Below, in pieces: positions 8,681 to 23,931 of a DNA stretch of 64,000 nt (positions are counted from its first letter, which is position 1; every line of letters begins with the position of its first letter). The notes beneath the pieces are model-generated. The model was not told the DNA's origin. It searched no databases and was given only the letters and a program-made list of their open reading frames with translations. This stretch comes from Rhodospira trueperi (GTDB lineage: Bacteria > Pseudomonadota > Alphaproteobacteria > Rhodospirillales > Rhodospirillaceae): contig NZ_FNAP01000001.1 in NCBI RefSeq assembly GCF_900101965.1, positions 310,001-374,000 of the forward strand, read 5' to 3'. A program made the translations under genes and the position numbers.

Positions 8681-9760
8681 TCATCGCGCCGGTGGGGATG
8701 GCGGTTCGGTCGGTGCGGTCTCGCCGTCGGGGTCGAGAGAGCCCAGGACCATCAGATCCTGCGCCAGGGTATCGGCTGCCTCCTCCGGTGTTCCGGGTTT
8801 CTCGCGGGCGCGTTTCGGAGCATGACCGAAATAGGCCCGGTAGCACTTGGCGAAGTGAGAGGCCGACGTGAAGCCGCTGGCCACCGCCACCTGCAGGACC
8901 GTCATGGAAGTCTGCGCCAGTAGGGCGCGCGAGCGCCACAGGCGAAGGTTGAGGTAGTACCGTGACGGCGAGATGGACAGGTGTTTGCGGAACAGCCGCT
9001 CAAGCTGACGTTCAGAGACTCCCACGGTTCGGGCTAGGTCCTCCACCGGAAGCGGCGTTTCGAGATGGCCTTCCATGCGGGCAATGGCAGCCAGCACCTT
9101 GGGATCGCTGACGCCGGTGCGCTCACGCAGGGCGAGCCGTTGCGGGTCGTCCGGCCGGCGCACGCCGGTATGGATCATCGCCTCGGCGACCTGCAGCGCC
9201 AGATCCTCGCCGTGCTCTTGCCGGATCAGGGCGATCATCATGTCCAGCGCCGCCGCGCCCCCCGCGCAGGTAAAGCGGTCGCGGTCGATCTCGAACAGGG
9301 TTGCGGTGATGTCGAGGTCCGGGAACTCTTCCGCGAATCCTTCCATGTTCTCCCAGTGGATGGTGCAGCGGTAGCCGTCCAGCAGTCCGGCCCGTGCCAG
9401 CACGAGGGCGCCGGTGCACAATCCGCCAAGTGGGATGCCCTGTCGGGCCGTCTTTCGGAGCCAGGCATCGACGTTCGGACTGCGGAAGGATTCGATCCCC
9501 AGGCCGGAGCAGACGGCGACGGCATCGGGTCGGTGGGGCAGGGCGCCCAGGCGCCCGTCGGGCAGCACATGGATTCCGTTGCTGGCCACGCCCGGGCCGC
9601 CGTCCTCGGTGACGATTTCCCAGGTGTACAGCGTCTTCTCCGCCCGGCGATTGGCCGCGCGCAACGGTTCCACGCTGGAGGTGAAGGCCAGCATCGAAAA
9701 GCCGGGCAGCAGCAGGAAATGAAACAGGCGGGGCGCGTCATTTCGTTGCGGTTTGAGCAT
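8681..9760 (-). CDS. GlxA/GbdR-type AraC-family transcriptional regulator
   Basis: 359 aa. Residues about 12-185 form a DJ-1/PfpI (GATase1-like) domain: FLLLPGFSMLAF, then the nucleophile-elbow-like GGLCTGALVLARAGLL. Residues about 230-330 are a double helix-turn-helix AraC domain (VGVSERQLERLFRKHLSISPSRYYLNLRL ending ASGFTSASHFAKCYRAYFGHAP). This is the architecture of GbdR and CdhR, which sense glycine betaine/dimethylglycine or carnitine derivatives and activate demethylation genes. Its position next to the sarcosine oxidase and dimethylglycine dehydrogenase genes supports a role as activator of the island. The ligand is inferred. Confidence 0.85.
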   Translation of the reverse strand: MLKPQRNDAPRLFHFLLLPGFSMLAFTSSVEPLRAANRRAEKTLYTWEIVTEDGGPGVASNGIHVLPDGRLGALPHRPDAVAVCSGLGIESFRSPNVDAWLRKTARQGIPLGGLCTGALVLARAGLLDGYRCTIHWENMEGFAEEFPDLDITATLFEIDRDRFTCAGGAAALDMMIALIRQEHGEDLALQVAEAMIHTGVRRPDDPQRLALRERTGVSDPKVLAAIARMEGHLETPLPVEDLARTVGVSERQLERLFRKHLSISPSRYYLNLRLWRSRALLAQTSMTVLQVAVASGFTSASHFAKCYRAYFGHAPKRAREKPGTPEEAADTLAQDLMVLGSLDPDGETAPTEPPSPPAR

Positions 9761-9883: not shown

Positions 9884-10888
9884 TCAGGCGCCGGGCGAAT
9901 CCGCGACGGCCGTGGCGCGCAGGGCCTGCGGCGTGGCGCCGTAAGCCGCCTTGAGGTGCCGGGAGAAGTGCGAGGCGTCGGCGAAACCGCACTCCTGGGC
10001 GATGTCGGTGAAAGTGCGGCGGGTGCGGGTCACCAGCCAATGTCCGTGGCGCAGCCGCAGCGCGCGGGCGTGCGCCGACGGGGTGGTATCCAGTTCCTCG
10101 CGGAACAGTCGCTCAAGTTGGCGTCGCGACAGGCCCACGCGCCGGGCGAGATCGTCGGCGCGCGGTGGTGTCGCGAGGGTGTGGTCGAGAATGCGCAGCG
10201 CCCGCCGCAGTCGCGGGTCTTGCACTGGGTGTTCTCCGGCCGGGATGTCCATCGGCTGCGGTGTGTCGGCCGGCCGGGCGCCGTCGCTGACCAGGATGTG
10301 CAGGGCCTTGCGCGCCGCCGAGGCGCCAAGATGGCGGTCCACCAGCCACGCCGCCAGATCCACCGCCCCGGTTCCGCCGGCGCAGGTGATGCGGGGGCCA
10401 TCGACCACGAACAGGCGGTCGGCGACCGGGGTAACTTCCGGAAAGGCGGTGATGAGGTCGTGGTAGTGGTACCACGACACACAGCATTCACGATCACGCA
10501 TCAGGCCGGCGTCGATCAGGGTGAACACGGCCGTGCACAGACCCACCAGGGGCACCTTCGCCGCAGCGGCCTCGCGCAGCCAGCCGATCACCGCCGGGTC
10601 CTGGATCGGGCCGTGATGGATCAGCCCACCGACCACCACGATATAGTCGAAACCGGCCGGGGCCAGCAGCCCGGAATCCGGGCTCAGGCGGGTGCCGCAA
10701 CTGGCCCGGACGGCGCGCCCGTCAGCGGTCATGACGGTCCAGCGGCAGTCGATCTGGCGGCTGCGGTCGCCCTCGTCGGCGGCAAGACGCAGGACATCGA
10801 CGAAGCCGGCGAACGGCAGCAGGGTGAAGTCCCTGAGCAGCAGGAACCCGACCTTCAGGCGGGCATTGCCGGACGTCGGTTCAGCCAT
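9884..10888 (-). CDS. Second GlxA-type AraC-family transcriptional regulator
   Basis: 334 aa, the same two-domain plan as its neighbour: a GATase1-like domain (LKVGFLLLRDFTLLPFAGFVDVLRLA; IVVVGGLIHHG; VGLCTAVFTLIDAGLM) and a C-terminal AraC domain (LARRVGLSRRQLERLFREELDTTPSAHARALRLRHG ... CGFADASHFSRHLKAAYG). The two proteins are clearly paralogous but diverged, so they probably answer to different ligands. This gene is divergent from soxB across a 263-base gap and is the best placed candidate to control that promoter. The DJ-1 domain probably binds an amine or betaine rather than acting as an enzyme. Confidence 0.85.
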   Translation of the reverse strand: MAEPTSGNARLKVGFLLLRDFTLLPFAGFVDVLRLAADEGDRSRQIDCRWTVMTADGRAVRASCGTRLSPDSGLLAPAGFDYIVVVGGLIHHGPIQDPAVIGWLREAAAAKVPLVGLCTAVFTLIDAGLMRDRECCVSWYHYHDLITAFPEVTPVADRLFVVDGPRITCAGGTGAVDLAAWLVDRHLGASAARKALHILVSDGARPADTPQPMDIPAGEHPVQDPRLRRALRILDHTLATPPRADDLARRVGLSRRQLERLFREELDTTPSAHARALRLRHGHWLVTRTRRTFTDIAQECGFADASHFSRHLKAAYGATPQALRATAVADSPGA

Positions 10889-11151: not shown

Positions 11152-12402
11152 ATGCGGTATTCGATCTGGTCGTTGGCGCGCAACGCGCTGTCCCATCACG
11201 CGGACTGGCCGCGCCAGTGGCGCAGTCCGGACCCGAAACTCGCCTATGACGTCATCATCGTCGGCGGTGGCGGGCATGGTCTGGCGACGGCCTATTACCT
11301 CGCCAAGGAGCACGGCATCACCAATGTGGCGGTGTTGGAGAAGGGCTGGCTGGGCGGCGGCAACACCGGGCGCAACACCACTATCGTCCGCTCCAACTAT
11401 CTGTTCGACGAAAGTGCGGCGTTGTACGAACTGTCCCTGAAGCTCTGGGAGGGGCTGTCGCGGGATCTGAACTACAATGTCATGCTCAGCCAACGGGGCG
11501 TCCTCAATCTGGCCCACAGCCTTCAGGACGTGCGCGCCGGTCGGCGCCGTGCCGAGGCCAACCGGCTGAACGGCATTGATTCGGACTGGCTGGATACCGC
11601 CGGAGTTGCCCGGGTCTGCCCCATCCTGAACACGTCGCTGTCACTGCGCTACCCCGTCATGGGCTCGACGTTCCAGCCCCGGGGTGGCACCGCGCGCCAC
11701 GATGCCGTGGCCTGGGGGTATGCCCGCGCCGCCGACGCGCGCGGGGTGGACATCATCCAGAATTGCGAGGTGACCGGCATCCGCCGCGATGGCTCCGGCG
11801 CCGTGACGGGGGTCGAAACCACGCGCGGAGTGATCGGCGCGAAGAAGGTCGGGATCGTCACCGCCGGTCACACGTCGGTGCTGGCCGAGATGGCGGGCAT
11901 CCGGCTGCCGATCCAGTCGCACCCGTTGCAGGCCCTGGTGTCGGAGCCGATCAAGCCTGTGCTGGATCAGGTCATCATGTCGGGCGCCATCCACGTCTAC
12001 GTCAGCCAGTCCGACAAGGGCGAACTGGTCATCGGTGCGGGCATCGACAGCTACAACTCCTATGCCCAGCGCGGCAGCTTCCATGTGCTGGAGCACCAGA
12101 CGGCGGCGCTGGTGGAGTTGTTCCCGATCTTCGCCCGGCTGCGCATGATGCGGACGTGGGCGGGGATCGTGGACACGTGCCCCGACGCCTCGCCGATTCT
12201 GAGCACAACGTCGGTGCCGGGCCTGTACATCAACGGCGGCTGGGGCACCGGGGGTTTCAAGGCCACGCCGGGGTCCGGGTTCGTGTTCGCCCACACCATC
12301 GCCCGCGACGCACCGCACCCCGTCAACGCGCCGTTCTCGCTCGACCGCTTCACCACCGGCGCCCTGATCGACGAACACGGCGCCGCCGCCGTCGCCCACT
12401 GA
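11152..12402 (+). CDS. soxB: Sarcosine oxidase subunit beta
   Basis: 416 aa. The catalytic subunit of heterotetrameric sarcosine oxidase, which oxidises sarcosine to glycine with O2 and passes the methyl carbon to tetrahydrofolate. The characteristic N-terminus [16 protein letters not shown] is followed by the FAD-binding Rossmann motif [24 protein letters not shown] (32-55), [16 protein letters not shown], and the late [20 protein letters not shown] motif. Length and features match the family along the whole protein. It is the first gene of soxB-soxD-soxA-soxG, with 25 bases to soxD. Confidence 0.95.
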
Positions 12403-12427: not shown

Positions 12428-12709
12428 ATGCTGCTGATCGAGTGCCCCTGGTGCGGGTCGCGCGAGGAACCGGAGTTCCACTATGGCGGGCAGGCCCATG
12501 TGGCCCGGCCGGCCGATCCGTCCGCGCTGTCGGACGCGGACTGGGCGGCGTACGTGTTCCTGCGCGACAACCCCAAGGGCGTGTTTGCCGAGCGCTGGTG
12601 TCATTCCGCCGGCTGCCGGCGCTGGTTCAACGTGCTACGCGATACCGTCAGCCACCGCGTGCTCGCCGTCTACCGCATGGGCGAAACCCCGCCGGAGGCG
12701 CCGCGATGA
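12428..12709 (+). CDS. soxD: Sarcosine oxidase subunit delta
   Basis: 93 aa, the usual size. It has the zinc-binding pattern ECPWCGSRE near the start and CHSAGCRRWFNVLRDT near residues 58-73, plus VSHRVLAVYRMGE at the end. This small subunit holds a structural zinc and bridges the other subunits. A GGGAGGA ribosome site lies just upstream. Its stop overlaps the start of soxA (ATGA). Confidence 0.95.
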   Translation: MLLIECPWCGSREEPEFHYGGQAHVARPADPSALSDADWAAYVFLRDNPKGVFAERWCHSAGCRRWFNVLRDTVSHRVLAVYRMGETPPEAPR

Positions 12710-15700
12710 CCGGTCGGACCCAGGACTTCCGCCTGCCCAAGGGTGGGGTGATTGATCGGTCGCGGTCCATCCGCTTCCGCTTCAACGGCCAGTGGATGGG
12801 CGGGTATTCTGGCGACACCCTGGCCAGCGCCCTGCTGGCCAACGGCGTTCATCTGGTCGGGCGCTCGATGAAGTATCACCGGCCGCGCGGTATCATGGCG
12901 GCGGGGGCCGAGGATCCGGGGGCGCTGGTCCAGCGCGGTCTGCACGACGAGCCGGCCCGCACCGATCCTGACTGGCGCGCCACCCAGACCGCTTTGGTCG
13001 ACGGGCTGGAGGTCGCGACCATCGGCGCCTGGCCGTCGCTTGAACGGGACATGGGCGCGGCGATGGGGCTGGCCTCGCGCGTCATGGGGGCGGGGTTCTA
13101 CTACAAGATCATGCACGGCTCGCGCTGGATGTGGGAGCACGTGCAGGAGCCGCTGATTCGCAGGGCCGCCGGCTTCGGCGATTGCCCCGATGAGCCGGAC
13201 CCGGATGTCTATGACCACCGCCATGTCCATTGCGAGGTGCTGGTGGTGGGGGCCGGCCCGGCCGGGCTGGCGGCGGCGGTCGCGGCGGCGCGGTCGGGCG
13301 CGCGGGTGATCCTGGCCGAGCAGGACGAACGGTTCGGCGGCAACCTGCTCGGGCGGCGGCGCGCCATCGACGGGCAAGACGGGGTGGACTGGGCGGCGGC
13401 CATGGAGGCCCGCCTGCGCGCCAGTCCGGACGTCCGCCTGCTGCCGCGGACCACTGTCGTGGGGTACTACGATACCAACTATCTCGTGGCGCTGGAGCGC
13501 GTGACCGATCACCTGGGCCTGGGACCGGCGGCCCCCGGACGGCCGCGTCAGCGCCTGTGGCATATCCGGGCGAAGCGGGTGGTGCTGGCCACCGGGGCCC
13601 ACGAACGCCCGCTGGTGTTCGGCGACAACGATCGGCCGGGGATCATGCTGGCCGGGGCGGCGCAAACGTATCTGCGCCGCTGGGCGGTGTTGCCGGGACG
13701 GGACGTCGTGCTGTTCACCAACAACGACCGCGCCTACGAGGCGGCACTGGATCTGCATGCGGCCGGCGCCACGGTGCGTGCCATTGTCGATTCCCGCGAG
13801 GCGCCAGGCGCGGCGATGCCCGCCGCCGCCCGTGCCGCCGGAATTCGGGTGATGACCGGATGTGTCGTTGGTGGCACGAGCGGAACGCGGCGCGTGACCG
13901 GCGCCAGCATCATGAAACGGAGCACCCACGGCCGCGCCGTGCCCTATGCGCTGGACGCGCTGCCATGCGATCTGCTGTTGGTCTCGGGCGGGCTGTCGCC
14001 CGTGGTGCACCTATTCAGCCAGTCCGGCGGCAAGCTGAGGTACGACCCGGATCGCGTGGCGTTCGTGCCCGACCGCTCGGCACAGGCGCTCGGCAACGCC
14101 GGTGCCTGCAACGGGACCTTCGATCTGGCCGGATGCCTGTCGGAGGGTGCGGCGGCGGGCGCCGAGGCGGTGCGACTGGCGGGCTTTGATCCGGGCGCCG
14201 CCCGAACGTCATTCGCGGTCGATGAGCCCGACGCCAGCGCTGTCGCGCCGCTCTGGTGGGCGCGTCCGGCCGAGGGGCATGAGCACGCCTGGGGCCAGCC
14301 CTTCGTCGATTTCCAGAACGACACCACCGCCCACGACATCCGGCAGGCGGTCCGCGAGGGCTTTGAGAGCGTCGAGCACGTCAAGCGCTACACCCTCACC
14401 GGCTTCGGCACCGACCAGGGCAAGACCGCCAACATCAACGCCATCGGTATTCTGGCCGAGGCGCTGGGCCGGCCCATCCCGGAGGTCGGCACGACGACCT
14501 TCCGCCCACCCTACACGCCCGTCACGTTCGCCGCCATGGCCGGGCGCGACCGGGGTGAGTACCTGGACCCGGCGCGCCTGACCGCCATCCACGACCGTCA
14601 CGTGGCCCTGGGTGCGATGTTCGAGGACGTGGGCCAGTGGAAACGCCCCTGGTACTATCCGCGCCCCGGCGAGACCATGCATCAGGCCGTCGCCCGCGAA
14701 TGCCGGGCCGCGCGTGAGGCGGTGGGGGTGCTGGACGCCTCCACCCTGGGCAAGATCGACATCCAGGGGCCGGACGCCGCCGAGTTCCTCAACCGCGTCT
14801 ACACCAATGCCTGGAGCAAGCTGGAGATCGGGCGCGTCCGTTACGGCGTCATGTGCCGCGAGGACGGCATGGTGTTCGACGACGGCACCACGGCGCGGAT
14901 CGACGACACCCGATACCTGATGACCACCACCACCGGCAATGCGGCGGCCGTCCTGGACCACCTGGAGGACTACCTCCAGACCGAATGGCCGGACCTGCGG
15001 GTGCGCCTGACGTCAGTGACCGAGCAGTGGGCGACGGTGAGCATCGCCGGGCCGAAGGCGGGCATCCTGATGGGGCGGCTGGCCTCGGGCCAAGACCTGT
15101 CACCGGCGGCGTTCCCGTTCATGACATGGCGCCCGGCCATCGTCGCTGGCCTGCATGCCCGCGTCTTCCGCATCAGCTTCACCGGCGAACTGCAATACGA
15201 GATCAACGTGCCGTGGCATCAGGGCGGGGCGCTGTGGGACGCGGTGATGTGCGCCGGTGTCGGCCTGGGCATCACGCCCTACGGCACCGAGACCATGCAT
15301 GTTCTGCGGGCCGAGAAGGGCTTCATCATCGTCGGCCAGGAAACGGACGGCACCCAGACCCCGCTTGACCTGGGAATGGACTGGATCGTCTCGAAGAAGA
15401 AGCCGGATTTCATCGGCCAGCGGTCGTTGACCCGGCCCGACACGGCGCGCGCCGACCGCAAGCAACTTGTCGGCCTGCTACCGAAAAACAAGCGCCTCGT
15501 GTTCCCGGAAGGCAGCCAGATCGTCGAGACGGGCGCGTCCCGGCGCCCGCCGCCAGTGCCCATGCTGGGCTTCGTGACGTCGGCCTACTGGAGCCCGGCG
15601 TTGGACAGCGGCTTCGCGCTGGCCCTGGTGGCCGGCGGGCGAGGGCGGATCGGCGACACGGTCGCGGTCGCGCTGCCGTCCGGGGAGCAGGCGGCGGTGA

Positions 15701-15759
15701 TCTGCGATCCCGTGATGCTCGACAGGGAGGGGGCGCGCCGCGATGGACACGCCGCTTGA
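12706..15759 (+). CDS. soxA: Sarcosine oxidase subunit alpha
   Basis: 1017 aa from the ATG at 12706, which overlaps the soxD stop; the frame is open further upstream, but that part is a shadow of soxD. Domain order: an N-terminal ferredoxin-like region (SIRFRFNGQWMGGYSGDTLASALLANG), a NAD-binding Rossmann fold (CEVLVVGAGPAGLAAAVAA, near residue 178), a pyridine-nucleotide oxidoreductase middle, and a C-terminal GcvT-like folate-binding domain (from about residue 650). The folate domain captures the methyl group of sarcosine as 5,10-methylene-THF. The full length is intact. Confidence 0.95.
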   Translation: MTGRTQDFRLPKGGVIDRSRSIRFRFNGQWMGGYSGDTLASALLANGVHLVGRSMKYHRPRGIMAAGAEDPGALVQRGLHDEPARTDPDWRATQTALVDGLEVATIGAWPSLERDMGAAMGLASRVMGAGFYYKIMHGSRWMWEHVQEPLIRRAAGFGDCPDEPDPDVYDHRHVHCEVLVVGAGPAGLAAAVAAARSGARVILAEQDERFGGNLLGRRRAIDGQDGVDWAAAMEARLRASPDVRLLPRTTVVGYYDTNYLVALERVTDHLGLGPAAPGRPRQRLWHIRAKRVVLATGAHERPLVFGDNDRPGIMLAGAAQTYLRRWAVLPGRDVVLFTNNDRAYEAALDLHAAGATVRAIVDSREAPGAAMPAAARAAGIRVMTGCVVGGTSGTRRVTGASIMKRSTHGRAVPYALDALPCDLLLVSGGLSPVVHLFSQSGGKLRYDPDRVAFVPDRSAQALGNAGACNGTFDLAGCLSEGAAAGAEAVRLAGFDPGAARTSFAVDEPDASAVAPLWWARPAEGHEHAWGQPFVDFQNDTTAHDIRQAVREGFESVEHVKRYTLTGFGTDQGKTANINAIGILAEALGRPIPEVGTTTFRPPYTPVTFAAMAGRDRGEYLDPARLTAIHDRHVALGAMFEDVGQWKRPWYYPRPGETMHQAVARECRAAREAVGVLDASTLGKIDIQGPDAAEFLNRVYTNAWSKLEIGRVRYGVMCREDGMVFDDGTTARIDDTRYLMTTTTGNAAAVLDHLEDYLQTEWPDLRVRLTSVTEQWATVSIAGPKAGILMGRLASGQDLSPAAFPFMTWRPAIVAGLHARVFRISFTGELQYEINVPWHQGGALWDAVMCAGVGLGITPYGTETMHVLRAEKGFIIVGQETDGTQTPLDLGMDWIVSKKKPDFIGQRSLTRPDTARADRKQLVGLLPKNKRLVFPEGSQIVETGASRRPPPVPMLGFVTSAYWSPALDSGFALALVAGGRGRIGDTVAVALPSGEQAAVICDPVMLDREGARRDGHAA

Positions 15760-16387
15760 GATGGGGCCGGAGATGGGGCCGGGCGGACCCGGCGGACGCT
15801 GGGAAAACCCGCTGTTGGCGCTGGAGTTGGACATGGCGGCGGCCAGCGGGCCGCTGGTGACTCTGTCGTGCGCGCCGCCGCGCGCGGCCATCAATCTGCG
15901 CGCCACCGAGGGCCTGTTGCCGGAGATCGAACGGACGTATGGCGTCCGTCCTTCCACCACGCCCAACACCTGGACCGCCAGCGCCGACGGGTCGCGCATC
16001 GCCTTGTGGCTGGGCCCGCACGAGTGGCTGTTGCTGGCGCCGGAGGGCACCGCGCCGAGCGTGGAGGCTGCTATCCGAGACGCCCGCGCCAACGACGGCT
16101 GGCTGGGGGTGTGCGACGTCTCGCACAATTACACGACGCTGATGCTGAGGGGGCGGCGCGCCCGCCTCGTGCTGTCGAAGGGCTGCGCGCTCGACCTGCA
16201 TCCGCGCGGCCCTTGGCGGCCCGGCACCTGCGCCCAGACGACGCTGGCGCGGACGCGGGTGCTGCTGCGCGTGACCGATGATCCGGACGCCATCGAACTG
16301 TGGGTGCGCAATTCGTTTGCCCGCTACACGGTGGCGTGGCTGCTCGACGCCATGACGGGGATCGCGCACGAACCGGGGGATTTCTGA
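15743..16387 (+). CDS. soxG: Sarcosine oxidase subunit gamma
   Basis: 214 aa, overlapping soxA by 17 bases. The family phrases are AINLRATEGL, WLGPHEWLLLAP, DVSHNYTTLMLRGRRARLVLSKGCALDLHP, FARYTVAWLLDAM. It is a truncated GcvT-like fold that completes the heterotetramer. The first 25 residues are Gly/Pro/Met-rich (EMGPEMGPGGPGG), and an in-frame start further in is possible. It is last in the sox operon. Confidence 0.92.
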   Translation: MDTPLEMGPEMGPGGPGGRWENPLLALELDMAAASGPLVTLSCAPPRAAINLRATEGLLPEIERTYGVRPSTTPNTWTASADGSRIALWLGPHEWLLLAPEGTAPSVEAAIRDARANDGWLGVCDVSHNYTTLMLRGRRARLVLSKGCALDLHPRGPWRPGTCAQTTLARTRVLLRVTDDPDAIELWVRNSFARYTVAWLLDAMTGIAHEPGDF

Positions 16388-16575: not shown

Positions 16576-16650
16576 ATGACCCGGTACCGAGAGGAACGGA
16601 TTCTCCGAAAACCGGATGACGGCCAGGGGCACCGCACCAGGGAGGCAACC

Positions 16651-19089
16651 ATGAGGACTCAAGCGCGCGTTGTGGTCATCGGCGGCGGTGTCGTCGGCGT
16701 CTCCACCCTCTACCATCTGGCCGCCAAGGGCTGGACCGACGTGGTTCTGGTGGAGCGCAAGGAACTGACCTCGGGGTCGACGTGGCACGCCGCCGGGTTG
16801 CTGCCGCTGTTCAACATGAGCTACTCGGTCGGCCAGATTCACAAGTACTCGGTCGCCTTCTACCAGCGCCTCCAGGAGGAGACCGGCCAGGATGTCGGCT
16901 TCCGGCAGGTCAGTAACATCCGCCTCGCTCAGACCCGCGACCGCATGGACGAGTACCGCCAGTATGCTGGCGTGGCCGCGACCATCGGCGTCGAGGTCGA
17001 CTTCATCACGCCGGAGCAGGTCAAGGACATCTGGCCGCTCTGCAACATCGAGGGCCTGATCGGCGCCATCCAGCATCCGGCCGACGGCTATATCCAGCCG
17101 GCCGACCTGACCCAGGCGCTGGCCAAGGGCGCCCGCGCCCGGGGTGGCGAGATCAACCGCAACGTCACCGTGACCGGCATCACTCAGAACCCCAACGGCG
17201 AATGGGTGGTTCAGACGGACAAGGGCGACATCACCTGCGAGCACGTCGTCTCCTGCACCGGCAACTTCGCCCGCGCCACCGGCCGCATGGTGGGGCTCGA
17301 TGTGCCGGTGATCCCCGTCGAGCACCAGTTCATCGTCACCGAGCCGCATCCGGAGATCGTCGCCCGCCGCAAGCAGGGCCTGCCGGAGATGGGTGTCCTG
17401 CGCGATTCAGATAACGCCTGGTACATGCGGGAGGAGAACGGCGGCCTGCTGCTCGGCCCCTACGAGAAGGGCGCGCCCTGCTGCTACGCCGACGACCCAC
17501 ACCCCGACACCGAGTGGGAGCTGTTCCAGGGCGACCTGGAGCGCCTGGAGCCGCATATCGAGGGCGCCATCTTCCGCGTGCCGGCCTTCGGCGAGGTCGG
17601 CGTCAAGGAGGTGTACAACGGCGCCATCGCCTATACCCCGGACGGCAGCCCGATCATCGGCCCGGCCTGGGGGCTGCGCAACTTCTGGCTCAACGAGGGC
17701 CACAGCTTCGGCATCACGGCGGCCGGCGGCGCGGGCTGGCAGTTGGCCGAATGGATCGTCGAGGGTGAGCCGACCATCGACATGCTGGGGGTCGACCCGC
17801 GCCGCTTCGGCGACTACGCCACCAAGGGCTACCTGCGACGCAAGAACGAGGAAGCCTACGCCAACGTCTTCACCATCCACTATCCTGACGAGGAACGCGT
17901 GGCGGCGCGGCCGCTGCGCACCGCGCCGTGCTACGAGCGCATGCGCGACCTGGGCGCCGTGTTCGGGCAGAAGTTCGGCTGGGAGCGGCCCAACTGGTTC
18001 GCGCCGCCGGGCACGCCGGCCGAGGACGACTGGTCGTTCCGCCGCTCCCAGTGGTTCGAGGCCGTGGGACGCGAGGCACGTAACGTGGCCGAGAACGTCG
18101 GCCTGCTGGACATGACGGCCTTTGCCAAGGCGCGCGTCTCTGGGCCGGGCGCCGAGGCATTTCTCGACCGGCTGGTGGCCAACAAGCTGCCCAAGAAGAT
18201 CGGCCGGGTGGGGCTGTGCCATGCCCTGATTCCACGCGGCGGCGTGCATTCCGAATTCACCATCCAGCGGGAGGGGTCGGACCAGTTCTATCTGGTCAGC
18301 GCGGGCGCCTTGCAGCGGCTCGATCACGATTGGCTGTGGCGGCACATGCCGAACGACGGCTCGGTCCACTTCCAGAACCTGACCGGCGCCATGGGCGTGC
18401 TGGTGTTGGCCGGGCCGAACGCGCGCACCCTGCTGGAGCGGGTCAGCGAAGCCGATTTCTCGAACGCCGCGTTCCCCTGGCTGTCGGGTCAGGACATCGT
18501 GATCGGCATGGCGCCGGTGAAGGCGCTGCGCGTCAACTTCGTCGGCGAACTGGGGTGGGAGTTGCACCACCCGATCGAATATCAGAACCACATTTTCGAT
18601 GTGCTGATGGCGGCGGGCGGGGACCTGGGCATCAAGCCGTTCGGCATCCGCGCCATGGACAGTCTGCGCCTGGAAAAGTCCTACCGCATGGTGGGCACCG
18701 AGATGTCCATCGAGTACGCGGCGTATGAATCCGGCCTGGACCGGTTCATCCATCCCGACAAGGGCGATTTCATCGGTCGCGAGGCCCTGCTGCGCTGGCG
18801 GGACGCGGGGTTCGCGAACCGGTTCGTCACCCTCCAGGTGCATGACGTCACCGACGCCGATGCCCTGGGCAACAATCCGATCACCGACGGCAACACCGTT
18901 GTCGGACGGGCGACCGGGGGCAACTACGGCTTTCGTGTCGGCCACTCGCTGGCCCTGGCCATGGTGCGGCCGGAGGTGGCGGGCGAGGGCACGGAGCTGT
19001 TCATGGACATTCTCGGCACCCGCCATCGCGTCACCGTGATCCCGGAAAGCCCGTATGATCCGGACAATCTGCGCTTGCGCGGGCTCTAA
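16651..19089 (+). CDS. Dimethylglycine dehydrogenase-like FAD/folate protein
   Basis: 812 aa from ATG 16651, chosen because GGGAGG lies 5 nt upstream and the FAD motif begins at residue 5 (VVVIGGGVVGVSTLYHLAAKG). Shortly after comes STWHAAG, whose His carries covalent FAD in mammalian dimethylglycine and sarcosine dehydrogenases. The C-terminal half is a GcvT fold (VSGPGAEAFLDRL; NFVGELGWELHHP; YGFRVGHSLALAMV) that accepts the one-carbon unit on THF. The full length matches the family. Together with soxBDAG it would convert dimethylglycine to sarcosine and then glycine. A sarcosine dehydrogenase activity is the main alternative. Confidence 0.88.
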   Translation: MRTQARVVVIGGGVVGVSTLYHLAAKGWTDVVLVERKELTSGSTWHAAGLLPLFNMSYSVGQIHKYSVAFYQRLQEETGQDVGFRQVSNIRLAQTRDRMDEYRQYAGVAATIGVEVDFITPEQVKDIWPLCNIEGLIGAIQHPADGYIQPADLTQALAKGARARGGEINRNVTVTGITQNPNGEWVVQTDKGDITCEHVVSCTGNFARATGRMVGLDVPVIPVEHQFIVTEPHPEIVARRKQGLPEMGVLRDSDNAWYMREENGGLLLGPYEKGAPCCYADDPHPDTEWELFQGDLERLEPHIEGAIFRVPAFGEVGVKEVYNGAIAYTPDGSPIIGPAWGLRNFWLNEGHSFGITAAGGAGWQLAEWIVEGEPTIDMLGVDPRRFGDYATKGYLRRKNEEAYANVFTIHYPDEERVAARPLRTAPCYERMRDLGAVFGQKFGWERPNWFAPPGTPAEDDWSFRRSQWFEAVGREARNVAENVGLLDMTAFAKARVSGPGAEAFLDRLVANKLPKKIGRVGLCHALIPRGGVHSEFTIQREGSDQFYLVSAGALQRLDHDWLWRHMPNDGSVHFQNLTGAMGVLVLAGPNARTLLERVSEADFSNAAFPWLSGQDIVIGMAPVKALRVNFVGELGWELHHPIEYQNHIFDVLMAAGGDLGIKPFGIRAMDSLRLEKSYRMVGTEMSIEYAAYESGLDRFIHPDKGDFIGREALLRWRDAGFANRFVTLQVHDVTDADALGNNPITDGNTVVGRATGGNYGFRVGHSLALAMVRPEVAGEGTELFMDILGTRHRVTVIPESPYDPDNLRLRGL

Positions 19090-19125: not shown

Positions 19126-21072
19126 TCACGACGGGTTTTTTCCCACGGGCAAGGTGAAGGAGAAGGTGCTTCCCTGTCCCGGTTTGGAGTCGATCCAGAT
19201 GCGTCCGCCATGGCGTTCGACAATGCGCTTGCAGATGGCGAGGCCGATCCCCGTCCCGTCGCGGCCGCCGCCATCTTGCAGCCGTGCGAACATGCGGAAC
19301 GCGCGCTCGTGCTGTGTCGGGGCGATACCAATGCCGTTGTCAGTGATCGAAAGGGTCGCCCAGCCGTCCGCGACGGTGGCCCGGACAGCGATTCTCGGTG
19401 TGCGGTCCGGGTGGCTGTACTTCAGCGCATTGCTGATCAGGTTCTGAAACAGGCTGCGAAGCTGCACCGCGTCCGCCCGCAGGGTTGGCAGATCGACGAT
19501 GTCGATCGCGGCCTCGGGAAAGGCACTGGCGACATTCAGGTCGTCCAACGCTTCGCGGAGAAGGGCATCGGCGTTGACGCCCCGGAGTTCGCCGCCCTGG
19601 GATTGGACGCGGGAGTATTCGAGAACACCCTGGATCATCCCGCTCATCCGCTTCGCGCCGTCCACGGCGTGGTAAATGAACGTGCGCCCGTCGTCGTCCA
19701 GCCGATCAGCATAACGCCGTTCGATCAGGCCCATGTACCCACTGATCATCCGCAGAGGCTCCTGGAGGTCATGCGAGACCACCGAGGCGAACTGTCGCAG
19801 GTCGGCGTTGGAGCGTTCCAGGTCTCGTGTGCGGTCTTGCACTTTCTGTTCAAGGGTGGCGTTCAGGTCGCGCAGGGCGTCTTGGGTGCGCACGAAGTGG
19901 CGCACGGCCAAGACGATCAGCATCAGCGAGAATATGAACAATCCCCACGGCATTGGCAGGGTTGTCCACGGCAGCAGGCTGTGGGCCACGGCCATGTCGA
20001 CCATAAGGAACAGGCTGAACACCGCGAATGCCACGAGGACCGCCCGCCGTTTGGGGTCGGCGTCCCGGAAGTGTGTAAAAGTGGCTCTGAACATGAGGAT
20101 CAGGCTGATGGTCAGCAGGCCGTCGAAGACCGGGTACGTGTCCGACAGGGTGACCAGCCCGAGCAGCGAGCAGCTCATCGCGCCGGCCGCATAGAGGGCA
20201 TGGAGGAGTCCGATCCACGTCAAGGTGCGGGCCCATCGCGGCCCGCACCAGTCCCGGAATAGGAACGCCATGGCGGCGGGCAGCACGTAGTACGCCGCAG
20301 CATCAATGTAATCCCACATCAGCGGCGCATTGACGAGGAGCTGCGTGCCCTGTGTTCCGGCCAGCCCCATGGTTCCCGTGGCGATCGTGAAGACCGAGAT
20401 CGGCAGGTATGGACTGCGTTCCCGACTGAGCACCGCCAGCATCAGCGCCATTACGGCGATCAGGAATGACAGGGCCGTGATGACGAATCGGCTCTGGGAT
20501 GTGCCAAGGACATACTTGATCAGGTCCAGGCGTTCCATCAGCTTGATCTCGCCCCACAAGCCGATGTCCATGTAGTTAGAAAATATACGAAAGTATATAG
20601 TTTTGTCGCCGAAATTTTTTGGAAGCTCTATCATGTGCCACGGCCAGCCAACAAAAACACCTTCTCCTTTGTCGTCGAACTCACCGAAATCGTATATTTT
20701 ATGTCCGTCTAGGTAGACTTCGGTGATCAGATCAACGCTGTAGATATAGATCACCGGGTCACGCCAGTCACCCTCTGGGAGAGGGGCCCGGTACCACACG
20801 TTTCGGCGTCCGTCCCGGTCCGGCGGATTGGACGGAAAGTCGATGGGTTGCCAGGCGTCGTCGCCCACGCCGGGACGAGTCCACAGCGGCACTCCGTCCG
20901 CGCCAATCGGGGAGTCGCCCCAGCGATATTCCCAGCCCGTATCGAGATCCCGAGGGGAGTCACGCGCCCATCCGCCGTTTGCGCCGGCGAGAAGCAGCAG
21001 AATCACAACGCCCATGCCAATAACCGCCCGAAGGGAACCAATTAGGACGCTTGATTTCCTCGCATGGTGCAT
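19126..21072 (-). CDS. Sensor histidine kinase with 7TM-DISM-type input region
   Basis: 648 aa. A signal/TM segment at residues 15-36 is followed by an extracytoplasmic beta-rich domain (about 40-190; GWEYRW, NVWYRAPLP, VYLDGHKIYDFG), as in 7TM-DISM receptors. About seven hydrophobic helices span 195-395, then a coiled linker (LNATLEQKVQDRTRDLERSNADLRQF). The HisKA box FASVVSHDLQEPLRMI has its phospho-His near residue 432, with N box LISNALKYSHP, G1 ITDNGIGIA and G2 GTGIGLAICKRIVERHGG. No response regulator is adjacent, so the kinase is an orphan. The 5' third is visibly AT-richer than its surroundings. Confidence 0.88.
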   Translation of the reverse strand: MHHARKSSVLIGSLRAVIGMGVVILLLLAGANGGWARDSPRDLDTGWEYRWGDSPIGADGVPLWTRPGVGDDAWQPIDFPSNPPDRDGRRNVWYRAPLPEGDWRDPVIYIYSVDLITEVYLDGHKIYDFGEFDDKGEGVFVGWPWHMIELPKNFGDKTIYFRIFSNYMDIGLWGEIKLMERLDLIKYVLGTSQSRFVITALSFLIAVMALMLAVLSRERSPYLPISVFTIATGTMGLAGTQGTQLLVNAPLMWDYIDAAAYYVLPAAMAFLFRDWCGPRWARTLTWIGLLHALYAAGAMSCSLLGLVTLSDTYPVFDGLLTISLILMFRATFTHFRDADPKRRAVLVAFAVFSLFLMVDMAVAHSLLPWTTLPMPWGLFIFSLMLIVLAVRHFVRTQDALRDLNATLEQKVQDRTRDLERSNADLRQFASVVSHDLQEPLRMISGYMGLIERRYADRLDDDGRTFIYHAVDGAKRMSGMIQGVLEYSRVQSQGGELRGVNADALLREALDDLNVASAFPEAAIDIVDLPTLRADAVQLRSLFQNLISNALKYSHPDRTPRIAVRATVADGWATLSITDNGIGIAPTQHERAFRMFARLQDGGGRDGTGIGLAICKRIVERHGGRIWIDSKPGQGSTFSFTLPVGKNPS

Positions 21073-21556: not shown

Positions 21557-22933
21557 ATGGACACGCCTCTCTCGCCTGAAGCCGCCGCCACGCTCGATGC
21601 CAGCCTTGCGGCCGACCGCCTTGACCTGACCACCCACCAATGTCCGACCGTCGATCAGTCTGATCGGACGGTGCCGTTCAATCTGCGCCAGAGCGGCCCG
21701 ACCCCGGTGCAGATGCTGATCTCGACCCGGGTGCGCAAGTCGCCCTACTGGCACCTCGCCCACAAGGCCGGCTGCTGGCGGGCCACTGTCTACAACCGCA
21801 TGTACCATCCGCGCGGCTACGTCCGGCCGGAGGACGGCGGTGCCATGGTGGAATACGACGCGCTGGTTAACCACGTCACCATGTGGAACGTGGCGGTCGA
21901 GCGGCAGATCCAGGTAAAGGGACCGGACGCAGAGGCGTTCGTCAATACTGTCGTGACCCGCGACGTGACCCGGATCGCGCCAATGAACGGCAAGTACGTG
22001 ATCCTGTGCAATGAGGACGGCGGCATTCTCAATGATCCGGTCCTGTTGCGCGTGGCGGAGGACGAGTTCTGGTTCTCGCTGTCCGACAGCGACCTGGAGA
22101 TGTGGCTGCGCGGCGTGAACCTGGGCCTGAAGATGAACGTCTCGATCAAGGAGATCGACGTTGCCCCGGTGCAGATCCAGGGGCCGAAGTCCCAGGCCCT
22201 GATGGAGGATCTGGTCGGCCCGGCGATTCGAGACGTGCCGTACTACGGTCTGCTAGAGGCCAAGGTGGGCGGTCGCGATGTGGTGATCTCGCAGACCGGG
22301 TTCTCGGGCGAAGCGGGTTACGAGATCTACCTCAGGGACGCCACGCTGTACGCCGACGACATGTGGAACGCGGTGCTGGAGGCCGGCCAGGCCCACAAGC
22401 TGATGGTCATCGCGCCCGCGCACCATCGCCGTATCGCCGCCGGGATTCTGTCCTGGGGGCAGGACCTGGACCAGGAGACGCTGCCGTTCCAGTGCAATCT
22501 GGGCTATCAGGTGCCGCGCAAGAAGACCGCCGACTATATCGGCAAGGCCCGCCTGGAGCAGGTCCGCGCCGAACTGGAGGCCGGCGGCGAGCCGTACAGG
22601 CTGCAACTTGTCGGCATGGCCCTGGGCGGCAAACCGATCACCGACTACGCGCCCGACTTCTGGCTGATCTCCGGCGAGACTGCGGGCGATCCCATCGGTT
22701 ACGTGACCTCGCCGTGGTACTCGCCGGAACTCGGCACCAACATCGCCATGGGCTATGTCCCCTATGGCATGCGCCATGAGGGCACGCGCCTGACCGTGTG
22801 GCTGCCGGAGGTGTACGCAGAGCGGGCCGGGGAGCCGGTCAACGCCCAGATTGTGCCGATGCCGTTCCGCACCTCCGCCAACCCGAGCGCGCGCGAACTG
22901 GCCCGCTCGCGGGGCCGCGACACGGCGTACTGA
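21557..22933 (+). CDS. GcvT-family, DmdA-like folate-dependent demethylase
   Basis: 458 aa from ATG 21557. The core resembles DMSP demethylase DmdA and the O-demethylases LigM/DesA, all GcvT-fold enzymes that move a methyl group to THF: VTMWNVAVERQIQVKGPDAEAF, MNGKYVILCNEDGGILNDPVL, FWFSLSDSDLEMWLRGV, VQIQGPKSQALM, ISQTGFSGEAGYEIYL, and the C-terminal YVTSPWYSPELGTNIAMGYV. DmdA is about 370 aa; this protein has roughly 90 extra residues, mainly at the N-terminus. It is followed 98 bases later by a MetF-like gene, which could oxidise the 5-methyl-THF it makes. DMSP, glycine betaine or a methoxy-aromatic are all possible substrates. The neighbouring sarcosine and dimethylglycine genes favour a betaine-type methyl donor, as inference. 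Confidence 0.8.
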   Translation: MDTPLSPEAAATLDASLAADRLDLTTHQCPTVDQSDRTVPFNLRQSGPTPVQMLISTRVRKSPYWHLAHKAGCWRATVYNRMYHPRGYVRPEDGGAMVEYDALVNHVTMWNVAVERQIQVKGPDAEAFVNTVVTRDVTRIAPMNGKYVILCNEDGGILNDPVLLRVAEDEFWFSLSDSDLEMWLRGVNLGLKMNVSIKEIDVAPVQIQGPKSQALMEDLVGPAIRDVPYYGLLEAKVGGRDVVISQTGFSGEAGYEIYLRDATLYADDMWNAVLEAGQAHKLMVIAPAHHRRIAAGILSWGQDLDQETLPFQCNLGYQVPRKKTADYIGKARLEQVRAELEAGGEPYRLQLVGMALGGKPITDYAPDFWLISGETAGDPIGYVTSPWYSPELGTNIAMGYVPYGMRHEGTRLTVWLPEVYAERAGEPVNAQIVPMPFRTSANPSARELARSRGRDTAY

Positions 22934-23031
22934 GCCCCGGTGTCAGGGTCCGGCCGGGAGCATGGCCGGACCCGAGCCTGGTCCCAAATCAAGGCGTTTA
23001 GGACCGCCCGAGAGGCGGAAAGGGGAGGCGC

Positions 23032-23931
23032 ATGCCGTACGACAGCCTCTTGGACCGCGAGCCGACCGGCTTCTCCATCGAGATCACGCCCAGCGCGGCG
23101 CGCAAGGTGCCCTCGTTCGCCGCGGTGTTGCCGGCCGACACACCGGTCTATGTGACCAACCTGCCCGGAACGGATGTGTGCGAGGCCATGGGGGTGTGCC
23201 GGCGGCTGCGCGACGAGGGCATGCGCCCGGTACCGCATCTCGCCGCCCGGGGTTTGAAAAGCCGGGGCGATCTGGCCGTTTGGCTGGATCGGGCGGTGGG
23301 CGAGGGGGGCGTCCGCGAGATCCTGCTGATCGCCGGATCGGGGGAGCGTGCGGCCGGGCCGTTCCCCGACACGCTGGCGGTTCTCGATTCCGGCTTGCTG
23401 GAAACGGCGGGGCTGCGCGGGTTCGGCGTCGCCGGCCATCCGGAGGGGCACCCGAACGCCGGACCGGCGGTGTTGGCCGATGCGCTACGCCGCAAGCAGG
23501 CGTTCGCCGCCGCGCACGGTTTCGACGCCTGGATCGTCACCCAGTTTACCTTCAGCGCCGCGCCGGTGCTGCGCTGGGCGGAGACCATGGCCGACGCGGG
23601 GGTGACGCTGCCGATCCGGGTCGGCCTGCCCGGGCCGGCCAAACCCGCCACCCTGATCAATTACGCGCGCCAATGTGGGGTCGGTGCGTCACTGCGCGTT
23701 CTGACGCGGCAGCCGGACGTGATGACCGGGCTGGTGCGCTCATGGACTCCCGATACCATCCTCGCCGACCTGACCCGGCAGGGCCTATGGGCGGGACGCG
23801 GGCATTTCGCGGGCGTCCACCTGTTCCCGTTCGGAGGCTTCGCCAAGGCGGCCACCTGGGCCACGGAGAGCGCGGGCAGGACCGTCTATCCGGGCTTGAA
23901 CGCGGATGGCGAGGCCGTGGGCTTGACATGA
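23032..23931 (+). CDS. Methylenetetrahydrofolate reductase-like (MetF-like) protein
   Basis: 299 aa, a TIM-barrel MTHFR family member. Visible: FSIEITPSAARKV (holding the catalytic Glu seen as SFEFFPP in MetF), VPHLAARG (HLT position), VREILLIAGSGER, and FDAWIVTQFTFSA (with the conserved Gln). In E. coli MetF the sequence after the fourth strand is ALRGD, whose Asp120 assists folate chemistry; here the same place reads IAGSGE with no Asp. A GGGGAGG ribosome site lies 4 nt upstream. It is downstream of the DmdA-like gene, so its likely role is oxidation of methyl-THF made by that enzyme rather than methionine synthesis. The sequence and its flavin and folate use need testing. Confidence 0.8.
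   Translation: MPYDSLLDREPTGFSIEITPSAARKVPSFAAVLPADTPVYVTNLPGTDVCEAMGVCRRLRDEGMRPVPHLAARGLKSRGDLAVWLDRAVGEGGVREILLIAGSGERAAGPFPDTLAVLDSGLLETAGLRGFGVAGHPEGHPNAGPAVLADALRRKQAFAAAHGFDAWIVTQFTFSAAPVLRWAETMADAGVTLPIRVGLPGPAKPATLINYARQCGVGASLRVLTRQPDVMTGLVRSWTPDTILADLTRQGLWAGRGHFAGVHLFPFGGFAKAATWATESAGRTVYPGLNADGEAVGLT

Follow-up and report, generated by a model that had tools for sequence, protein, structure and literature searches.

A candidate glycine betaine:tetrahydrofolate demethylase and its MetF2-type partner in Rhodospira trueperi

Two adjacent genes of Rhodospira trueperi may encode a tetrahydrofolate (THF)-dependent route for the demethylation of glycine betaine. They lie in a 64,000-nt window (contig NZ_FNAP01000001.1, positions 310,001 to 374,000; "the window" is the whole stretch of DNA analyzed), where a candidate demethylase gene is followed by a MetF-like gene, both on the + strand and separated by 98 bases. 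From sequence comparison we predict, with a probability of about 0.7, that the demethylase converts glycine betaine and THF to dimethylglycine and 5-methyl-THF, which the MetF-like protein (MetF2) then oxidizes. The prediction draws on the fold of the demethylase, residue conservation, gene linkage in relatives, and searches of this genome in which other glycine betaine routes gave no match.

With a little less confidence, we consider it probable that the pair represents an unrecognized cobalamin-free and O2-independent route from betaine to dimethylglycine that occurs in four bacterial phyla, haloarchaea, and relatives of SAR11 and HIMB59/AEGEAN-169, and that SAR11_1265-SAR11_1264 is this pair and not a demethylase of methylmercaptopropionate (MMPA). 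Beside GbcAB, Bhmt, and MtgBCD, bacteria would then have a fourth way to convert glycine betaine to dimethylglycine. We found no report of this route, or of a GcvT-type glycine betaine demethylase, in the open-access library searched. In marine and saline settings glycine betaine is a major osmolyte, and the mapping of its first demethylation step is still under way. If the prediction is true, the GcvT fold would perform a chemistry new to it, neither oxygen nor B12 could be assumed from betaine use, and a testable betaine route would open up for many halophiles, Marinobacter, HIMB59/AEGEAN-169, and SAR11 relatives. Some "DmdA-like" survey genes would then report betaine instead of dimethylsulfoniopropionate (DMSP).

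The demethylase and its MetF2-type partner

An earlier note on this DNA, made from the sequence alone, described a demethylase related to DmdA and LigM followed by a MetF-like protein. Both genes are present where it placed them. The demethylase carries GCV_T and GCV_T_C domains (Pfam), and the relation to DmdA stands, whereas that to LigM is remote. The best-scoring NCBIfam model is DmdA (NF009133, 267.1 bits), although its cut-off of 410 is not reached. The GcvT model TIGR00528 also stays below its cut-off (140.8 bits, 235.85), and scores on the LigM model NF047885 (35.4 bits, cut-off 580) and the DesA model (45 bits, cut-off 800) are far below. The strongest GCV_T match of the genome is on contig C22. 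By sequence, the best solved relative is DmdA 3tfh (154.8 bits).

We built an AlphaFold2 model of the demethylase from 40 family sequences (mean predicted local distance difference test 79.7, predicted template modeling score 0.83). The comparison with DmdA and LigM suggested in the earlier note places the predicted fold closest to DmdA: the top match is 3tfh (Z 40.1, root-mean-square deviation 2.3, 366 aligned), T-proteins are close behind (Z up to 39.0), and LigM structures score about 25; the absence of a family from this fold list carries no weight. The roughly 90 residues said to be lacking in DmdA hold as a length difference (458 aa compared to 369 in 3tfh). Model residues 50-438 align with 3tfh 3-369, so about 49 of the extra residues are N-terminal, about 20 are C-terminal, and the remainder is internal. 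The N-terminal segment is conserved throughout the family from about residue 32.

Residues Y95, S122, E204, and Y206 of 3tfh correspond to Y147, S174, E256, and Y258, which are invariant in 38/38 family rows of the alignment. The available text of a DmdA study names folate residues S, E, and Y and a W171 that is key for DMSP, in another numbering (PMC7487153), and we infer that this W171 is W197 of 3tfh. The position is F249 in all 38 family rows, W in 9/10 other DmdA-like rows, and Y in the three DmdA rows used; because these DmdA rows carry Tyr, the position cannot decide the substrate. W74, Y83, H84, H289, and W300 are among the family-invariant residues that differ from the DmdA rows, and some of them recur in other outgroups. 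Judged by its domains and by the THF-binding residues it keeps, the protein is a THF-dependent transferase of the GcvT-fold type.

The family separates from its relatives in a tree of 56 rows, 38 of them family members (the window and 37 loci), with outgroups that include three DmdA-type rows, DmdA-like rows, and one LigM-like row. All 38 family rows are on one side of a 100/100 branch and the DmdA-type, DmdA-like, and LigM-like rows are all outside it. A very long branch separates the row that we label LigM-like from the family. The deeper order is unsure because the outgroup branches are long. Compared to DmdA, the family has the same GcvT fold and THF-binding residues and a similar predicted transfer of a methyl group from an onium compound to THF; the differences are an identity of about 27-32%, a separate clade, F at the W197 position, an N-terminal segment of its own, and a dimethylglycine/sarcosine neighborhood instead of dmdBCD.

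No Pfam model passed for the MetF-like protein. Its best solved relative is the 5,10-methylenetetrahydrofolate reductase 7xg9 (193.7 bits), and it scores 22.1 bits on the canonical MetF model TIGR00676 (cut-off 293.7, not reached). Aligned over 92% of its length, it shares 40.9% identity with the MetF-type protein of plasmid pCMU01 of Methylorubrum extorquens CM4, and both have Ser in the GD/GS motif, where many relatives have Asp. This clear relation to 7xg9 and to CM4 MetF2 identifies the product, at the level of sequence, as a short MetF2 of the catabolic type. The metF2 gene of pCMU01 is reported as essential for growth on chloromethane (PMC3621897, available text). The CM4 protein resembles the window protein in sequence (41%), short length, distance from canonical MetF, and a partner that loads a methyl group on THF, but its partner is the corrinoid CmuAB system.

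A second parallel is MtgBCD with MetF2 in Ruegeria pomeroyi, where, in the text available, betaine is converted to dimethylglycine, the methyl group passes to THF, and MetF2 is proposed to oxidize methyl-THF; on three N-osmolytes, the metF2 product is the protein whose production differs most (PMC12478193). That system is cobalamin-dependent, whereas the window enzyme is a single protein of GcvT fold, and no corrinoid subunit is seen next to it. The Ruegeria MetF2 logic fits what we propose for the window pair, minus the corrinoid proteins. The main text of this 2025 paper, as far as available, covers GbcAB, Bhmt, and MtgBCD and does not mention DmdA or GcvT (PMC12478193).

In the proposed mechanism, the demethylase would move one methyl group of glycine betaine to N5 of THF, presumably in an SN2-like manner, without O2 or cobalamin. 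MetF2 would oxidize 5-methyl-THF to 5,10-methylene-THF, a presumed direction with its genetic precedent in chloromethane utilization. The dimethylglycine dehydrogenase-like (DMGDH-like) enzyme and SoxBDAG, encoded nearby, have domains consistent with conversion of dimethylglycine to sarcosine and then glycine, their likely substrates, and may load folate too. One-carbon units would exit via folate oxidation, for which this genome has PurU (338.6 bits, cut-off 285.95). GbdR-like regulators probably sense betaine or dimethylglycine.

Gene neighborhoods and distribution of the family

We surveyed neighborhoods of up to 10 kb per side, with genes called by tblastn at set bit thresholds, for the best 80 of 564 confirmed relatives on named contigs; as the best 80 were taken, the counts hold for the closest relatives and are no census. 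MetF2 is found in 62 loci, DMGDH in 62 (counting relatives down to about 30% identity), formate-THF ligase in 31, soxA in 30, soxB in 29, GbdR-type regulators in 26, and DgcA in 3. Dimethylglycine or sarcosine genes (DMGDH, DgcA, or sox) are near the demethylase in 67 of the 80. Because 19 locus titles are "AG-" marine single-cell names, we also counted per cluster at 90% identity: 24 of 39 clusters have MetF2, 25 have DMGDH, and 28 have any dimethylglycine or sarcosine gene. GbcA is absent from all 80 neighborhoods (tblastn).

The two neighborhoods that carry most weight are from Photobacterium (L126) and Grimontia (L148). The Photobacterium order is soxB-soxA-demethylase-MetF2-formate-THF ligase-dipeptidase-short hypothetical-DgcA-DgcB. 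In Grimontia, a dipeptidase-DgcA-DgcB block comes after demethylase, MetF2, formate-THF ligase (867 bits, cut-off 652), and one 631-aa open reading frame (ORF). The DgcA and DgcB names come from gene order and a match to an OYE-type flavoprotein, with no equivalog model passed; the dgcA/dgcB order is known from Vibrio natriegens and Pseudomonas (PMC12093977, available text). As DgcAB is unrelated to DMGDH, the common factor beside the demethylase would be a compound, dimethylglycine, which is therefore the likely product. The surroundings also recall those of the Rieske glycine betaine monooxygenase GbcAB: dgcAB and soxBDAG surround the pair in Photobacterium, and cluster with gbcAB in V. natriegens (PMC12093977, available text). 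The predicted product is the same, although GbcAB is an unrelated protein and the window route would need no O2 and make no formaldehyde.

Folate use finds independent support in a Halomicrococcus plasmid (L149, 8231-16919), where the demethylase gene occurs with an apparent folate kit of metF, two folD-type genes, and pabA/pabB-type genes, and with a formate-THF ligase and a BCCT transporter near. Haloarchaeal plasmid records are at least 16 of the 54 with matches (55-63% identity; 40 rows examined, with some strains present twice). The best 80 loci include Rhodospirillaceae, Halomonadaceae, Marinobacteraceae, Vibrionaceae, Micrococcaceae, Brevibacterium, Nitrospinota, Latescibacterota, and HIMB59-type marine single cells, which makes four bacterial phyla by the given labels. 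The HIMB59/AEGEAN-169 label of the AG- loci is taken from L094, which is titled HIMB59 and has the same gene order. Glycine betaine use is predicted for AEGEAN-169 genomes, with no demethylase or methyltransferase named in the available text (PMC11366302).

Close members (at least 59% identity) occur in 5/150 genomes of the order, R. trueperi included, and 16 have any match at 1e-40. In the class, the family is found in 19/385 genomes at 1e-130, again counting its own. We examined the loci of 10 of these 19. Five (L186, L187, L188, L193, and L194) have DMGDH or sox genes, and L195 has a DMGDH fragment at its edge and a 47% DgcA-like gene.

Two SAR11-like single-contig genomes (1.20 and 1.32 Mb) have a demethylase gene adjoining a MetF-type gene, with DMGDH about 5 to 8 kb away and, read by eye, ETF-type genes after it; a Rieske gene lies beside the pair. 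In "Candidatus Pelagibacter ubique", SAR11_1265 (aminomethyltransferase) adjoins metF (SAR11_1264), and DMGDH is SAR11_1253 (PMC3160333, available text). Because this gene order matches the SAR11-like loci, SAR11_1265 is probably a member of the family and SAR11_1265/SAR11_1264 the equivalent of the window pair. Its published substrate, MMPA, is a guess, and a different GcvT-like gene, SAR11_1303, was postulated for betaine metabolism in SAR11 (PMC3160333, available text). We rejected regulation of SAR11_1264/1265 by DMSP as a line of evidence: the mRNAs decrease in both sulfur-limited and control stationary phase, which indicates co-regulation only (PMC5069961, Table 1).

Other routes and other substrates

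The earlier note saw no Rieske-type betaine demethylase or BHMT gene nearby, and family searches extend this to the whole assembly (98.5% complete, 50 contigs). The GbcA model NF058607 has 0 matches and passes its cut-off in five other genomes. MTTB (PF06253) has 0 matches, with a positive Methanosarcina control. No separate S-methyl_trans protein of BHMT size was found; the sole match is inside a 1201-aa ORF that we read as MetH, and PF02574 cannot separate BHMT from other homocysteine methyltransferases. The genome has two BCCT transporters. A search for formate-THF ligase gave no match, though this gene is common beside the pair elsewhere.

We searched carrier genomes for GbcA (46 genomes: 41 from the 80 loci and 5 of the order, R. 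trueperi included), MTTB (25), and S-methyl_trans (26). PF06253, the MtgB-type family, is absent from 25/25, and GbcA has no match in both Photobacterium carriers. The findings named in the earlier note as refuting its reading do not occur in this genome, where neither a gbcA nor a bmt-type gene is found and the demethylase branches apart from aromatic O-demethylases.

Several observations weigh against the proposed reading. The strongest are GbcA in 5/46 carriers, other Rieske genes near family members, and loci without the downstream genes or MetF2. The five GbcA carriers are three Halomonadaceae, one Marinobacter, and Grimontia, and six actinobacterial carriers have GbcA-like proteins that score 385-414 bits and miss the cut-off of 670. 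The loci L076, Haloarcula L150, and the SAR11-like L186/L187 have other kinds of Rieske genes close to the demethylase, one of which could be the betaine enzyme there; with 132-146 bits, the L076 and L150 proteins stay far from the cut-off of the GbcA model. Bhmt may also coexist with the family, as separate S-methyl_trans ORFs are present in three HIMB59-type genomes (309-383 aa) and, at similar size, in other carriers. Thirteen of the 80 loci have no dimethylglycine or sarcosine gene in reach (7 of these span more than 21 kb), none of the markers is found in about 19 kb of the class-level L189-L192, and the DMGDH counts admit distant relatives. MetF2 is in 3/10 class-level loci (L186, L187, and L193), and none is within reach in the other seven. 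The order relatives G100 (89% complete) and G114 (77%) gave no match of the MetF2 type; their matches are weak, as for an ordinary MetF. Conversely, in 10 of the 13 order genomes whose MetF2 match is full-length, the MetF2-type gene has no demethylase within about 1.5 kb, and in Lichenihabitans (L152) MetF is beside a DmdA-like protein of another group, outside the family. Within the window, a histidine kinase gene on the opposite strand splits the pair and the sox-DMGDH genes into more than one transcription unit. To our knowledge there is no precedent for cobalamin-free direct transfer of a methyl group from a quaternary ammonium compound to THF.

The coexistence with GbcA and the other Rieske genes would fit a substrate that is another betaine (carnitine, proline betaine, dimethylsulfonioacetate, homarine, or similar), with DMGDH and Sox serving that pathway or shared. 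We think this unlikely, as the demethylase is linked to two unrelated dimethylglycine demethylases (DMGDH and dgcAB) whose common compound is dimethylglycine, and to GbdR-like regulators.

It is less likely still that the protein is a divergent DmdA acting on DMSP or MMPA, with an incidental link to sox and DMGDH. DmdA is its best solved relative, and in a speculation by Sun et al. 2011 the gene next to metF, SAR11_1265, serves to take off the second methyl group of DMSP, which would make MMPA its substrate (PMC3160333, available text). However, the protein is outside the DmdA clade and below the DmdA cut-off, and SAR11-like genomes have a DmdA of their own. The separate DmdA proteins of the two SAR11-like genomes are 82-86% identical to the P. 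ubique (3tfh) fragment, and in one of them, G485, the DmdA (86%) and the family member occupy different places in the genome, the former with DmdB/DmdC-like ORFs (read by eye). DmdA or DmdA-like plasmid genes in L151 and L170-L173 (7-15 kb each) are flanked by acyl-CoA genes, with no sox or DMGDH listed in what is an incomplete gene table.

We give very little credence to an aminomethyltransferase that helps DMGDH or Sox to transfer methylene groups to folate without demethylating betaine. The GcvT fold and the co-location with DMGDH and SoxA, both with GCV_T domains, would agree with such a role, but those enzymes already have these domains, a partner methylene-THF reductase is needed for methyl-THF and not for methylene-THF, and the demethylase is below the GcvT cut-offs. 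An aryl O-demethylase of the LigM/DesA type, which in Sphingobium likewise pairs a GcvT-fold THF demethylase (LigM also appears in the fold list) with a short catabolic MetF, is rejected on the NCBIfam scores and the tree: these enzymes are remote in sequence and act on aromatic substrates, the family does not group with aromatic O-demethylases, and none of the 20 window proteins scanned is an aromatic catabolic enzyme.

The earlier note left the substrate among glycine betaine, DMSP, or another onium compound. Folate-dependent demethylation that feeds the sox and DMGDH steps is supported by the comparative evidence, and the separate clade and the linkage to MetF2, ligase, and dimethylglycine genes narrow the predicted substrate to glycine betaine.

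Features of the window and side observations

The window also encodes the predicted downstream steps (Table 1). The soxBDAG and DMGDH-like genes named in the earlier note are present, with soxB and soxA above their cut-offs, soxG below, and soxD recognized by eye. The soxA start was chosen by eye at an ATGA overlap with soxD. Relatives of the DMGDH-like protein (60-78% identity) are near the demethylase in many other loci. The single operon suggested earlier is possible for the demethylase and MetF2 only. The demethylase start is kept in a 91%-identical gene of G130. Both AraC/DJ-1 regulator genes are divergent from soxB, and the GbdR-like one is nearer to it.

Table 1. Predicted features of the window, and Rieske oxygenase genes of other loci (positions within each locus)
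Feature	Position	Strand	Basis
GcvT-fold demethylase, 458 aa, proposed glycine betaine:tetrahydrofolate methyltransferase	21557..22933	+	GCV_T/GCV_T_C; DmdA model; 3tfh fold; own clade
MetF2-type methylenetetrahydrofolate reductase, 299 aa, proposed 5-methyl-THF oxidizer	23032..23931	+	7xg9 match; pCMU01 identity; motifs kept
10-bp inverted repeat in demethylase-MetF2 gap	22946..22973 (arms 22946-22955, 22964-22973)	.	Strong predicted hairpin
soxB, sarcosine oxidase beta	11152..12402	+	TIGR01373 722 bits, cut-off 529
soxD, sarcosine oxidase delta, 93 aa	12428..12709	+	ORF list; read by eye; soxB-soxA interval
soxA, sarcosine oxidase alpha	12706..15759	+	TIGR01372 1397 bits, cut-off 1164
soxG, sarcosine oxidase gamma	15743..16387	+	PF04268 61 bits; TIGR01375 87 bits, below cut-off 144
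Dimethylglycine dehydrogenase-like (DMGDH-like)	16576..19089	+	DAO + FAO_M + GCV_T + GCV_T_C domains
GbdR-like AraC/DJ-1 regulator	9884..10888	-	Best NCBIfam model GbdR 186 bits, below cut-off 480
Second AraC/DJ-1 regulator	8681..9760	-	Relatives near demethylase in other loci
Histidine kinase between DMGDH-like gene and demethylase	19126..21072	-	Domain/NCBIfam models
Rieske oxygenase gene, L186	11332-12528		Near demethylase
Rieske oxygenase gene, L187	11261-12490		Near demethylase
Rieske oxygenase gene, L076	2570-3775		Near demethylase
Rieske oxygenase gene, L150	20031-21170		Near demethylase

A 46% relative of the histidine kinase is near the demethylase in L053, and a role in betaine sensing is possible. 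The predicted hairpin in the demethylase-MetF2 gap may be an attenuator or an mRNA-stabilizing structure. A long hairpin of different sequence is also predicted in the same gap of two genomes of the same genus.

Roseobacter plasmids (L151, 6977-11055, and L170, 4974-9121) have a different DmdA-like clade together with OsmC, enoyl-CoA hydratase, acyl-CoA synthetase, and an Lrp regulator, and this clade may act on another onium acid. Another DmdA-like protein (384 aa, 45% identical to the DmdA fragment) is encoded in SAR11-like L202 (8646-9800), beside ORFs that, read by eye, resemble acyl-CoA ligase, enoyl-CoA hydratase, and a TRAP transporter.

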